A stretch of DNA of 64,000 nt from Planctomycetota bacterium (GTDB lineage: Bacteria > Planctomycetota > Phycisphaerae > Phycisphaerales > Phycisphaeraceae): positions 1 to 64,000 of the forward strand of contig JAIOPN010000001.1 in NCBI GenBank assembly GCA_021413865.1, given 5' to 3'. The translations under genes and the position numbers were made by a program. Shown here piece by piece: positions 1,581 through 56,033 of this stretch (position 1 is its first letter; each line of letters begins with the position of its first letter). The notes beneath the pieces were generated by a model. That model made no database searches. It was not told the origin of the DNA and saw only the letters and a program-made list of their open reading frames with translations.

Positions 1581-1652
1581 GACCTGTTTCCTCAGCTTGT
1601 CGGGTCGATGGAGTACCTATCGGCCAGTCGCCGCGCGGGGGTGCAACTCGCT

Positions 1653-1867
1653 CTGGACGAGCCGCGACCGTAAGGGAGCGGTCTTCAGGTAAGAGGGCAA
1701 TTTCAATCCGGTGGGGCAGGCGTCCCGCCTGTCGCCGGCCTTCCGAGGCCGGGGCCGGGTTCAAAACCGACTCGGGTTTGCAAGAGCAAAGGAAGAGACA
1801 GGCGGGACGCCTGCCCCACCGTTTCAATCAGGGCGGAACCGCTGCCTCACGGTCGCGGCTCGTCCGG
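1653..1867. repeat. Family C inverted repeat (C1) interrupted by a family B element
   Basis: The left arm at 1653 (CTGGACGAGCCGCGACCG) and the right arm ending at 1867 (CGGTCGCGGCTCGTCCGG) match the intact 89-nt copies at 18429-18517 and 36211-36299. The two halves are separated by a complete family B element (1709-1821). Removing B and one 8-nt flank leaves about 94 nt, close to the intact length. Confidence 0.85.
1709..1821. repeat. Family B inverted repeat (B1), nested in C1
   Basis: This 113-nt element begins CGGTGGGGCAGGCGTCCCGC and ends with the complement. Its interior resembles copies at 16487-16584 and 25343-25438. The octamer TTTCAATC lies directly on both sides (1701-1708 and 1822-1829), which looks like a target-site duplication. 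Confidence 0.85.
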
Positions 1868-3343
1868 AGGTCGCCGCTCGTTCACAGACGGCGTTTTGCG
1901 GAACAGCCCCAGCAGCACGGCCTTGTTCCCCGCGCCGTCGCGTATGCGATCGGAGGATGTCTCGGGAACGGCGTCATCGGGGCGCTTGATCAGGCGGATG
2001 ACCCACCGGGCGGCGGCGTCCCGCGCCGGGTCGGCGGGGTAGGCCCTGCCCATCAGGGTGCGCAGCGTCTGCGTCTCCTCGCCCTCGAAATGAATGGTGT
2101 CGCTGCCGACGATCGGCCGCACACTAGCCATGAACGCGTAGAGGTGTTCGCCGACTTTCTCCTTGTAGGCCGGCGAACCCAAGAGAAGAAACCACGCGAC
2201 GACCAGGGCGGTGACCAGCGGCGCCGCGGCGACGACGGGCCTCATCCACCGCGCACGCTGCACGAGGGCCATCGCGCCGAAGGCGGCGACGACGGCCGCC
2301 GGGCCGTAGATGGGGGCGATGTAGTCGGCGCGGCCTCCGGAGGCGAGCGTGAAGAAGGCGAGGAGGACGAATATCCAGAGGATCGCGGGGGCAAGGGCGT
2401 GGGACATCCAGCGGCGCGGCGGGACGACGACCAGCGCGACGATGACCCCCAGCGACCAGGGCAGGAAGCGGATGAGGAAATAGAGCGGCATCTGGTAAAG
2501 GTGAATGATCGGCCCGAGCCAGCCGTCGCGCGTGACGCGGTCTCGCACCTCCTCGCCGAAGAGCACGTCGTGCACATGTGCGGGATTGATACGGTACGCC
2601 GCGTAGAGCCACGCACCGGGGAGGAGCAGCGCCAGGGGCAGGCCCCACCACCAGTGGAGGCGATTGACCGCCGACCACCGGCCGTGGATCAACTTCGCCG
2701 CGAGCAGGGCATAGATCACACCCGCCAGCGCCGCCGGCCCCTTGGCGAGACCGGCCAGACCGACCGCGAGCCAGAACGCCAGCGCCCAGGACCACGACCG
2801 CTTTTGTGTTGATTCACCGGGTTTTTCCGCCTCCATCGCCACCGTGGCGAACGCCCACGACGCGGTCATGCAGGCAACGAGAAGCATGTCCGGCCGGGCG
2901 AGGTACACCAGCTTGGCGACCGGGTAGCAGGTGATCCACGCCACGCCGGCGTAGAGCGCGAGTTCCACGGCGCGGCGGCGGGTGCGCTCGTCGTGCGAGG
3001 AATCGATCTCGTTCACCGGCGGGCTCAGGCGTCGCGCCATCCAGAGTGTGATCGCCATCGTCGCACCGCCCGCGAGCAGCGACGGCAGGCGGAGCAGCCA
3101 TTCGTCCCAGCGGCCGACGGCCATGACCGCCAGCGCGCCGATCCAGTTGTAGAGCAGCGGCTTGGTCGCGGGCTTGCCCATGGCATCGACGGGCAGAACC
3201 CAGTGGCCGTTCACGACGATGTCGGCGGTGTAGGCGATGGTGCGCGGCTGATGCTGGTCGTAGATGTCGCTCGGCCCCAGGATGCGGGCCAGCATCACGA
3301 CGGCGACGGTGGTGACGAAGAGGATCGCCGGGAGTCGCGGCAT
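1847..3343 (-). CDS. GT39/ArnT-like membrane glycosyltransferase
   Basis: This 498-residue polytopic protein has about ten or more hydrophobic helices. The first extracytoplasmic loop (residues about 22-65) has the layout of dolichyl-phosphate-mannose or ArnT-type transferases: an acidic residue (GPSDIYD), then GHWVLPVDAMGKPATKPLL. These enzymes move a sugar from a polyprenyl-phosphate donor onto lipid or protein at the outer face of the inner membrane. The acceptor cannot be read from sequence. The last residues (RPPDEPRP) and the TGA stop are encoded by the right arm of repeat C1, so the natural C-terminus was probably altered by that repeat. The gene is about 30 nt downstream of the aspartic protease gene on the same strand. 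Confidence 0.8.
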   Translation of the reverse strand: MPRLPAILFVTTVAVVMLARILGPSDIYDQHQPRTIAYTADIVVNGHWVLPVDAMGKPATKPLLYNWIGALAVMAVGRWDEWLLRLPSLLAGGATMAITLWMARRLSPPVNEIDSSHDERTRRRAVELALYAGVAWITCYPVAKLVYLARPDMLLVACMTASWAFATVAMEAEKPGESTQKRSWSWALAFWLAVGLAGLAKGPAALAGVIYALLAAKLIHGRWSAVNRLHWWWGLPLALLLPGAWLYAAYRINPAHVHDVLFGEEVRDRVTRDGWLGPIIHLYQMPLYFLIRFLPWSLGVIVALVVVPPRRWMSHALAPAILWIFVLLAFFTLASGGRADYIAPIYGPAAVVAAFGAMALVQRARWMRPVVAAAPLVTALVVAWFLLLGSPAYKEKVGEHLYAFMASVRPIVGSDTIHFEGEETQTLRTLMGRAYPADPARDAAARWVIRLIKRPDDAVPETSSDRIRDGAGNKAVLLGLFRKTPSVNERRPPDEPRP

Positions 3344-16486: not shown

Positions 16487-16584
16487 CGGTGGGGCAGGCG
16501 TCCCGCCTGCCTCTCGCTTCTCTGCATTCTGAATGCAGGCCCGGTCTCGGAAGCCCGGCGGCAGGCGGAACGCCTGCCCCACCG
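16487..16584. repeat. Family B inverted repeat (B2)
   Basis: This 98-nt copy begins CGGTGGGGCAGGCGTCCCGC and ends with the near complement. The similarity to B1 and B3 covers the arms and part of the centre. Outer TTTCAAATC and GATTCAAAG extend the inverted symmetry. It lies 21 nt after the stop of the REC-GGDEF-EAL gene. Confidence 0.85.
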
Positions 16585-18348: not shown

Positions 18349-18424
18349 GTAGGGGGCGCTTCCAGCGCACCACGGACTACCCTCGATACCAGGATACGGA
18401 TGGTGCGCTGGAAGCGCACCCTAC
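18349..18424. repeat. Family A inverted repeat (A3)
   Basis: This is the second complete 76-nt copy, running from GTAGGGGGCGCTTCC to GGAAGCGCACCCTAC. It starts 8 nt after the VOC gene stop, and repeat C2 begins only 4 nt beyond its end. Confidence 0.88.
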
Positions 18425-23464: not shown

Positions 23465-23476
23465 AAAGGCCCTGAT

Positions 23477-23589
23477 CCCATAGCCCCCGGCTCGGCCGGG
23501 GGGTTCCACGTTGGGTTTGCGTATCGCGGCATATCCAGGAATTTCGGTGATCGCTCGAAGAACCCCCGGGCGGAGCCCGGGGCTATGGG
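23477..23589. repeat. Family D inverted repeat (D1)
   Basis: This 113-nt element starts CCCATAGCCCCCGGCTCGGC, ends with GGGGCTATGGG, and carries a variable centre. It lies 12 nt after thyX, and its right end abuts the GGAG ribosome-binding site of the next gene. Confidence 0.88.
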
Positions 23590-23601
23590 ACGGAGATTGT
23601 C

Positions 23602-25305: not shown

Positions 25306-25342
25306 CCTGGGTAGTGGGCCCATTTGAATTATCAGAGCATCC

Positions 25343-25438
25343 GGTGGGGCAGGCGTCCCGCCTGCCTCTTGCTTTCATGCATTCTGAATACGGACCCGGC
25401 CTCGGAAGGCCGGCGGCAGGCGGGACGCCTGCCCCACC
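25343..25438. repeat. Family B inverted repeat (B3)
   Basis: This copy of about 96 nt starts GGTGGGGCAGGCGTCCCGCC, ends with the complement, and shares the central segment GCATTCTGAAT with B2. Outer TTTGAAT and ATTCAAA extend the symmetry. It lies between two convergent genes, about 37 and 22 nt from their stops. Confidence 0.85.
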
Positions 25439-29920: not shown

Positions 29921-34596
<4,676 letters not shown>

Positions 34597-34597
34597 A

Positions 34598-34711
34598 CCT
34601 ATAGCCCCGGGCTCCGCCCGGGGGTTCCGCGAGCGATCAACGAAATGCACGACATCCACCACAACACGGGTATCTAACGAAGAACCCCCGGGCCGAGCCC
34701 GGGGCTATTGG
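34598..34711. repeat. Family D inverted repeat (D2) inside the glt operon
   Basis: This 114-nt copy starts CCTATAGCCCCGGGCTCCGC and ends GGGGCTATTGG. It begins 1 nt after the gltB stop, and the GGAAGAG ribosome-binding site of gltD lies at its edge. It could fold into a strong hairpin between gltB and gltD. Confidence 0.88.
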
Positions 34712-34722
34712 AAGAGTCTCAC

Positions 34723-51401: not shown

Positions 51402-51405
51402 GGCT

Positions 51406-51524
51406 CCCATAGCCCCCGGCTCGGCCGGGGGGTTCTCCGAGCGATCACCGAACACCAGTTGCACGTTCGCGGGCGTTACCGCATCCGGTGGTAAGAACCC
51501 CCGGGCGGAGCCCGGGGCTATGGG
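51406..51524. repeat. Family D inverted repeat (D3)
   Basis: This 119-nt copy lies between two convergent stop codons, 4 nt after the M20 gene and 8 nt from the next gene's stop. It has arms CCCATAGCCCCCGGCTCGGC and the complementary GGGGCTATGGG, with a centre unlike D1. Confidence 0.88.
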
Positions 51525-51532
51525 ACAGAACC

Positions 51533-54827: not shown

Positions 54828-56033
54828 CTAATCCGGTGTCACATACGCCCGCAGCGCAGCGACGTCGTTTTGCTCCGCGCAATCCCGTAGCGTCGGTGAA
54901 AACGCCCACAACACGGGCGACAGCAGATCACTATTCAAGCCCAGTACCCGCAACACGCACCGTTCGAGCTGATCGATGCCATCGCCACGCGTGGCGCTGA
55001 TGCGGAGTGGGCGGTCCGGGGCGTCACCGTCATGCTGCGTTGGGGAACTCGATAGGTCCGCTTTGTTCATCACCCAGACGGCTGGCCGACGTGCAAGCGC
55101 TCCCGCCTCGGGCCAGTCGATCGAGGGGTCGCGCAGGGCGACGAGCACATCCGCCGATTCGATCACCGCACGGGCCAGTTCGATGGCGTGTTGCTCGATC
55201 GGATCATCGCTGGCACGCAGGCCGGGGGTGTCGGTCCATCTCACGGCCACGGCCCCACGCAGCGCTGCGTCGGCGTCATCACCCCCCCGCCTCCAGAGCA
55301 GTTCCGCCAGGCCGGCGACCCAGTCGCGTGTCGTGCCGGGCAGGTCCGCCACCAGGTTCGCCGAGCGACCGAAGATGCGATTCGCAAGGGTGCTCTTGCC
55401 GACGTTTGGCCTGCCCACGACGACCACGCTCGGCGGGTTGATCAGCCGATCCAGCACGCGCGACCGAGCGAGGATTTCTCCCATAGTGCCCGGCTCGGCC
55501 GGGGGGTTCCGCGTTGGATGACCGGCGGCCGATTCATTCCCGGCAATGTCATCAACACCGGGCGTCGTTCGAAGACCCCCCCCGCCGAGCCGGGGGCTAT
55601 GGGAAAGAGCCGACCACAGCGCCGGTTGTGCGAGAAGCAGGTCGATCGCAGCCGGGCTCGCGGCGCGGGCGATCGCCGCCAGCGCGTCCGCCTCGATCGG
55701 GGAGGCCGCTTCGGGATAGGTCGCACGCGCGTCGGGCTCATCCCGATAGACCGCGCCCAGCGCCATCATCCGATCGATCAACCGCCGCACCACGCGCGGC
55801 CCGCCGTGCGGCATGACCTGCGCCAGAGCGTCCCCGCCGTCGCGCAGCAACACGGCCAACCCACGGTCGATCCCGTCCAGGTCAACGAGCCGCACGCGCG
55901 CCACCCCCCAGTCGCGCACGCCTGCAATCCCCTCCAACACCCCGCGCACGCCCGGCCCGCGCAGGTGGATGATCGCCACCGCCCCCGGCGCCGCCGCGGT
56001 CGTCAACCAGACATCGCACGTGCTGCTGCTCAT
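54828..56033 (-). CDS. MnmE-like GTPase with repeat-derived insert
   Basis: From ATG 56033 the product is 401 residues. The N-terminal region resembles the MnmE folate domain (AAAPGAVAIIHLRGPGVRGVL, MPHGGPRVVRRLIDRMMALGA) but lacks the PGEFTRRAFLNGK segment. The G domain is intact: GRPNVGKST near residue 200, DLPGTTRDW, DTPG, NKAD and ISAT. The C-terminus ends RAYVTPD, without the (C/V)(I/L)GK modification motif. Residues about 144-185 come from repeat D4. True tRNA wobble-uridine modification is therefore doubtful. The start overlaps the preceding gene's stop (ATGA). Confidence 0.75.
   Translation of the reverse strand: MSSSTCDVWLTTAAAPGAVAIIHLRGPGVRGVLEGIAGVRDWGVARVRLVDLDGIDRGLAVLLRDGGDALAQVMPHGGPRVVRRLIDRMMALGAVYRDEPDARATYPEAASPIEADALAAIARAASPAAIDLLLAQPALWSALSHSPRLGGGGLRTTPGVDDIAGNESAAGHPTRNPPAEPGTMGEILARSRVLDRLINPPSVVVVGRPNVGKSTLANRIFGRSANLVADLPGTTRDWVAGLAELLWRRGGDDADAALRGAVAVRWTDTPGLRASDDPIEQHAIELARAVIESADVLVALRDPSIDWPEAGALARRPAVWVMNKADLSSSPTQHDGDAPDRPLRISATRGDGIDQLERCVLRVLGLNSDLLSPVLWAFSPTLRDCAEQNDVAALRAYVTPD
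55480..55603. repeat. Family D inverted repeat (D4) inside a coding sequence
   Basis: This 124-nt copy with GGCTCGGCC and GGGGCTATGGG arms lies in the linker between the N-terminal and G domains of the MnmE-like protein. The reading frame continues through it. Other D copies, read in the same frame, encode a similar NPPAEPGAMG segment, so the insert is clearly repeat sequence. Confidence 0.85.

Follow-up and report, generated by a model that had tools for sequence, protein, structure and literature searches.

In this study we find that a complete copy of one palindromic repeat family, here called B, lies within the spacer of a copy of a second palindromic family, called C, in the genome of a planctomycete bacterium. 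Our preferred reading, which we consider probable, is that B and C are two non-autonomous REPIN-like families, in each of which inverted REP hairpins are paired around a spacer. One B copy would have been inserted into the spacer of a C copy, which forms the hairpin loop, with no regular duplication of the target, and C is likely to be mobilised by a Y1 (HUH) transposase domain that lies in-frame in valyl-tRNA synthetase (ValRS) of the same genome, between two C arms. The lack of a regular duplication is what one would expect if copying was carried out in trans by a single-strand HUH/Y1 transposase. In an extruded C element the spacer loop would be single-stranded, and might therefore be a reasonable landing place for B.

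The nested site and its two repeat families

The stretch of DNA analysed, here called the window, is 64,000 nucleotides long (G000:C62:1-64000) and belongs to a source genome (G000) of 4.37 Mb in 67 contigs. The B element of the nested site (CGGTGGGGC...GCCCCACCG, 113 nt) sits in the spacer of a C palindrome at 1651-1869, called C1, and is flanked on each side by one of two identical copies of the octamer TTTCAATC (Table 1). The arms of C1 are 91% complementary and separated by 155 nt, and next to them the spacer has the same ends as in many other C copies (TCTTC on the left, GGAA on the right). When the site is folded as a single strand, the B hairpin stands on top of the C stem, with -90.2 kcal/mol and a z of -10.8 against 200 shuffles. 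The nesting goes far beyond what chance would produce, whereas this is not clear for the octamer repeat taken alone. A first-pass annotation of the window had described the C arms as split by a complete B with the octamer on both sides, and our analysis agrees with it. The order of events that it proposed, C before B, is well supported, because B lies inside C and the ends of the spacer are C-like.

The same annotation stated that C1 returns to about the normal length of a C element when B and one octamer are removed. The GAG..CTC length of C1 is 203 nt, or 90 without B, 82 without B and one octamer, and 74 without B and both octamers, while it is 72-100 (median 76) in 34 other collected C copies, one of which, in L064, may be a spurious pairing. 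The statement is correct for one octamer, but the length without both octamers is equally normal, and length therefore cannot tell one octamer from none. Assuming that about a tenth of the genome is non-coding, 54 B copies landing at random would be expected to hit a C spacer (about 30 nt) roughly 0.1-0.2 times, so that one nested case needs no site preference. There was no genome of the same genus among the 60 relatives listed, and hence no empty orthologous site was seen; the nested region matched the relatives listed through the C arms and short stretches only.

Table 1. Features of the nested site, further copies of B and C in the window, and ValRS sequences with a Y1 domain.
Feature	Position	Strand	Remark
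C1 left arm (C-family REP)	1651..1682	+	
C1 spacer, left part	1683..1700	+	begins CTTC like many other C copies
Left octamer TTTCAATC	1701..1708	+	may be B edge, C spacer or duplication
B element	1709..1821	+	two inverted REPs (GGTGGGGCAGGCGTCCCGCCTG) around a variable middle
Right octamer TTTCAATC	1822..1829	+	perhaps native C spacer (weak)
C1 spacer, right part (AGGGCGGA)	1830..1837	+	
C1 right arm (inverted C-family REP)	1838..1869	-	
B copy B2	16487..16584	-	not nested in C
Intact C copy C2	18429..18517	+	
B copy B3	25342..25438	-	inside longer outer arms common to a few other copies
Intact C copy C3	36211..36299	+	
Source-genome valS	L190:793-4455 (G000:C4)		in-frame Y1 domain, C arms around the domain
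ValRS-Y1 sequences (16)	L190, L161, L162, L164-167, L169, L170, L172-175, L177, L178, L136		

Both B and C show the layout of REPINs, with two inverted hairpin REPs around a short spacer, dispersed in many copies. The source genome contains 117 B half-sites with at most 2 mismatches (58 forward and 59 reverse; control 1+0) and 95 C half-sites (45 forward and 50 reverse; control 0). The first-pass annotation took B to be mobile, probably in trans, which is plausible for a dispersed repeat whose copies are too short for a transposase gene. From the loci of the source genome we collected 54 paired B copies and a further 17 single entries, although some of these entries represent the same palindrome read twice and L135 is probably not a B element; single REPs of B are also present among the collected loci. 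Short paired C copies numbered 34, including the doubtful one. The C hairpins are strong when folded, and we conclude that each C arm forms its own hairpin from the compensatory change at pair 9/24, which is G-C in 63, A-T in 8 and A-C in 1 of the 72 arms. Within the order, exact B half-sites are found in 9/301 genomes, source genome included, and C half-sites with at most 3 mismatches in 79/251. The half-site thresholds differ between these two counts, which suggest that C is older and wider-spread than B. C is probably the older family in this lineage.

With regard to the foot of the hairpins, no GTAG-like foot was seen in the C arms on inspection by eye. CAGA or CGGA follows a number of right C arms, as judged again by eye. 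B reads GGTGGGGC, so that GTGG precedes the hairpin in the comparison with the GTAG foot. B is also found within longer outer arms (GGTAGTGG..CCACTACC), and none of the loci examined has a pair of outer arms that lacks B and so would prove the nesting. Longer shared outer arms surround some B copies (GGTAGTGGTCCC..TTTGAAT / ATTCAAA..GGGACCACTACC and variants, in L003, L004, L011, L106 and L111), and in L106 they enclose a single REP. Another B copy of the source genome starts a few bases past the stop codon of valS (L190:4456 onward; G000:C4:25457). In L110 (G000:C14, about 228362-228481) a solitary C arm and a B copy are some 30 nt apart, and this is possibly a second B-C junction of which the other C arm was lost.

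The window holds two other palindrome families. The third family (CCCATAGCCCC..GGGGCTATGGG) has four copies, at 23475-23590, 34596-34712, 51404-51525 and 55478-55604. The fourth is found at 145-220, 715-790 and 18349-18424, with a GTAG-footed REP (GTAGGGGGCGCTTCCAGCGCACC) in two of its three copies, and one of its copies adjoins C2 (18429).

The octamer and the flanks of B

The first-pass annotation interpreted the octamer as a target-site duplication, with the caution that it may partly belong to B. For the 54 paired B copies we determined the longest direct repeat between the two flanks with a slack of 0-8 nt. This repeat is 8 nt long in C1, 6 in two copies, 5 in two and 4 in 17, and 32 copies have none of at least 4. 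A flanking direct repeat of at least 7 nt is thus absent from 53 of the 54 copies, all but C1, and it is likewise absent from the 34 C copies, where the longest is 6. With a strictly symmetrical boundary C1 again reaches 8 nt, and the next best B copy 3 nt. The duplication of an octamer is not a property of the B family, and the interpretation does not hold for its other members. As a family trait, target duplication is ruled out for both B (1/54) and C (0/34 at 7 nt or more). A DDE MITE with an 8-bp target duplication was rejected as well, with a constant-length flanking repeat in 1/54 B and 0/34 C copies. In this single event a target duplication is possible.

The flanks of B share an extended sequence with the outward consensus ACCGGATTCAAA, which tapers: agreement exceeds 90% in ACC, drops to 58-79% in GGA and is 35-44% beyond. 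The first-pass annotation named flanks of other B copies without duplications and with a constant extended sequence as what would refute its reading. For the most part this is what we find, the shared sequence being present yet tapering. The caution about the octamer looks right. Its left copy differs by a single base from TTTGAATC-CGGT, as found in L014, and TTCAA/TTGAA lies within 20 nt of 16/106 other B ends, compared with 3.2% of the more distant windows. Of the two repeats of 6 nt, the one in L014 (TTTGAA) is again the B edge motif. When compared with the 53 other right flanks, the left flank of C1 finds an 8-nt match once (AATCCGGT, the B edge itself); the right flank finds none of 8 nt among the 53 other left flanks, its best match being 7 nt, once (TTCAATC). 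The octamer might also be native to C. Scored with a profile built from 31 other C spacers, the C1 spacer reaches 17.1 with one octamer and 12.2 with none. The octamer is among the top 9.8% of 20000 random octamers in the profile, and 21% of same-letter shuffles equal it; as proof the profile is weak.

If B had been put into C by a transposase, cut-and-paste or replicative, with an 8-nt duplication of the target, TTTCAATC would be its footprint. The repeat is indeed exact, symmetrical in its positions and unique among the 54 B copies there, and the spacer score of C1 is higher with one octamer than with none. We nevertheless regard this explanation as unlikely, given that the other 53 paired copies have no such repeat, that left and right flanks re-paired with the same slack reach at least 8 nt in 38/300 trials (some of them via related copies), and that the C1 flanks also match other copies and carry a motif that recurs at B ends. 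It is less likely still that B was never inserted at all, and that single C REPs landed separately on either side of it or that recombination or template switching brought B to its place. Separate landing would agree with the partnerless C half-site near the B copy in L110 and with the existence of single B REPs, but C1 keeps C-like spacer ends and the geometry of C, and a single insertion is more likely than two landings that were independent and yet symmetrical. The strength of the B and C hairpins could also suggest that both are structural elements, such as terminators or mRNA stabilisers, which were multiplied without transposition. This we consider very improbable for dispersed multi-copy families, one of which has its arms around a transposase domain in 15/16 ValRS sequences. 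The insertion of one B copy into a C spacer, without a regular duplication, remains our preferred reading.

A Y1 domain in valyl-tRNA synthetase

The transposase search of the genome, which the first-pass annotation had proposed, gave five Y1_Tnp matches in the source genome. One of these loci (L064) sits between C arms, with a frame that is open on both sides. The frame encodes a full-length ValRS of 1220 aa in which tRNA-synt_1 is found in two stretches, together with an anticodon-binding and a C-terminal arm domain, and in which a Y1 (HUH) domain lies in-frame, with Y1_Tnp at 507-595. The domain scores 36.7 with Pfam Y1_Tnp, above the cut-off of 23, and falls below the cut-offs of NCBIfam RAYT NF047646 (26.2 bits vs 80) and IS200/IS605 NF033573 (33.8 vs 55). 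Its motif after the Tyr is YVRQQE, with the Q one place early. An AlphaFold model of the insert has block means of 84-97 over residues 161-260 and lower values before (overall mean 64.6). This partly confident model matches the IS200, IS608 and ISDra2 transposases in the PDB and also the REP-bound RAYT 4er8, the PDB matches having E from 2.5e-4 and 10-16% identity. Since the model is good for part of the insert only, the place of the loop in ValRS is assigned from sequence. In 5 pairs the Y1 part alone gives a pN of 0.17-0.25, while synonymous sites are close to saturation. We infer that it is this domain that moves C.

Related Y1 domains are found in 59/251 genomes of the order (protein search, E 1e-15), and in 15/251, source genome included, a related domain occupies the same ValRS loop. 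A sixteenth insert sequence (L136) comes from a named MAG, Phycisphaeraceae bacterium TGS_PLA3, and a further match, G048:C60, is a frame of 1373 aa counted by its length only. The position of the insert is constant, between ..ALRAM..QR and LRF.P.RYAKTF..WHENIRDWCISRQLWWG or close variants. On both sides of the domain, correctly oriented C arms with at most 4 mismatches lie within 200 nt in 15/16 ValRS inserts, and a reversed-pattern control gave 0/16 with up to 8 mismatches; the insert of L178 has no recognisable C arms. The right C arm is translated as PLPHGRGS in 14/16 and as PLPDGRGS in L167, with neither in L178. HxH and the Tyr are kept in all 16 domains, and the motif after the Tyr varies. 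In a quick tree of 47 domains, with 24/44 forks open, the 16 ValRS domains need 2 label changes against a shuffled mean of 13.5 (0/500 as low), and one origin of these 16 is possible.

We examined 110 loci, composed of 60 of the listed ValRS with split matches, the 30 best ValRS, L234 and the Y1 loci of the protein search at E 1e-15, so that the counts are not prevalences. A segment of at most 95 residues separates two conserved ValRS motifs in 77 of them, and in 8 it has 96-144 residues without Y1. A class 3-like domain is present in 15, and one more is a second locus of the source-genome gene. Six have no junction (2 contig ends and 4 solitary Y1 loci). At the same ValRS loop, the remaining three (L234 of G283, L292 of G085 and L304 of G187) carry another kind of Y1 domain, RAYT-like, which has MPDHVH and a Y...NP motif and is accompanied by other REP arms. 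Read from its motif, this domain may belong to class 2 of Quentin et al. 2018. L234 passes Pfam Y1_Tnp (cut-off 23), while L304 (22.9) and L292 (20.4) fall short; L292, the only one of the three scanned, passes NCBIfam RAYT NF047646 with 85.4 vs 80. The arms of L234 read GTGGCACGGGCGTCCCGCCCGTG and are akin to B, which they match only when up to 4 mismatches are allowed. In L234 the frame that was read runs into a stop near 2485, in the vicinity of a further REP.

All 16 carrier genomes (15 sequence-checked and G048) have C half-sites, at least 4 each, against 63/235 others (Fisher p 3e-9, ignoring kinship), with the C arms inside valS adding to the half-site count. C is also abundant in genomes without a Y1 match at E 1e-15 (G052 105, G012 99, G053 76, G011 68 and G085 67), and the Y1 domain is therefore not required for the presence of C today.

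For B, arms on both sides were found at 0/5 source-genome Y1 loci, two of the five being cut at contig ends. When three source-genome Y1 proteins were compared by tblastn with 80 loci bearing B or C (1.4-6.3 kb, at least 71 from the source genome), there was no match at 1e-3, and three positive controls were all found. In 8 other B-bearing genomes the Y1 search gave 25 matches in 7 genomes, one of them with B-like arms on both sides, the ValRS of G283. L235 is an IS200-like gene with a single B REP downstream. Another IS200-like Y1 gene lies between inverted arms (GATTGTAGCCACGGGTGGAGCGGCGG) at L061:1390-2065, and is perhaps a further repeat family with its transposase. L062 and L063 (positions 1-483) carry two nearly identical RAYT-like genes; both are cut at contig ends, so there are probably at least two copies that were left unjoined by the assembly.

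Relation to known REP systems

Our families share with REPINs/BIMEs and their RAYT (TnpA_REP) the inverted pairs of short hairpin REPs, which are described in parts of the literature as dispersed, non-autonomous and associated with Y1 HUH enzymes (PMC2817692, PMC8266576, PMC3116915). For C, a putative cognate-type Y1 domain flanked by the same REPs is seen in the source-genome ValRS and 14/15 others. The differences are that no GTAG foot is seen in the C arms by eye, that the transposase domain lies within ValRS and not in a separate gene, and that the flanking C arms are translated. Sections of the same literature describe the related IS200/IS605 family as making no larger target duplications (PMC2817692), and TnpA_REP as a domesticated, housekeeping-like transposase which in E. 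coli cuts single-stranded REPs next to the hairpin, at a dinucleotide, the route of REP spreading being given there as not elucidated (PMC8266576).

The class 3 TnpA_Y1 of Quentin et al. 2018 (PMC6006769) are, in the sections that describe them, found in Planctomycetes and Acidobacteria, with NHVH, a Tyr motif YV[VI][AENY]EQ and flanking repeated structures of up to hundreds of copies per genome, all of which is similar to our case. HUH and Y(V)xxEQ are also found in the ValRS domains, among which the motif after the Tyr varies. However, class 3 proteins are given there as 178 aa, while their nearest relatives here are domains inside ValRS, and the class 3 foot CnGA was not clearly found in the C arms by eye. 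Intragenic REPs and Rickettsia palindromic elements, as outlined in part of PMC3733652, are likewise palindromes placed in-frame in protein genes, but in our case the transposase domain is itself part of the in-frame unit. Among the open-access PMC matches listed, judged by title and the start of the abstract and with subscription papers and preprints outside the search, none concerned a transposase domain in valyl-tRNA synthetase, and a transposase housed in a synthetase appears to be new.

The nesting by itself is ordinary, and orders two repeat families at one site. As a broader proposal, put forward tentatively and with slightly more doubt than confidence, the ValRS of a number of planctomycetes (Phycisphaeraceae and kin, as judged by one named genome) may house a REP-moving transposase, one of its loops may have been filled in-frame at least twice (by a class 3-like domain with C arms and by a RAYT-like domain with other arms), and the fusion may multiply REPs in trans. 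If this is true, its place in an essential gene would account for the persistence of a transposase that has no mobile gene of its own. A Y1 domain that is built into an aminoacyl-tRNA synthetase, flanked by palindromes found genome-wide and with its catalytic residues kept, offers a concrete and testable reason for such persistence. A single protein would then allow REP binding, cleavage and aminoacylation to be tested together.
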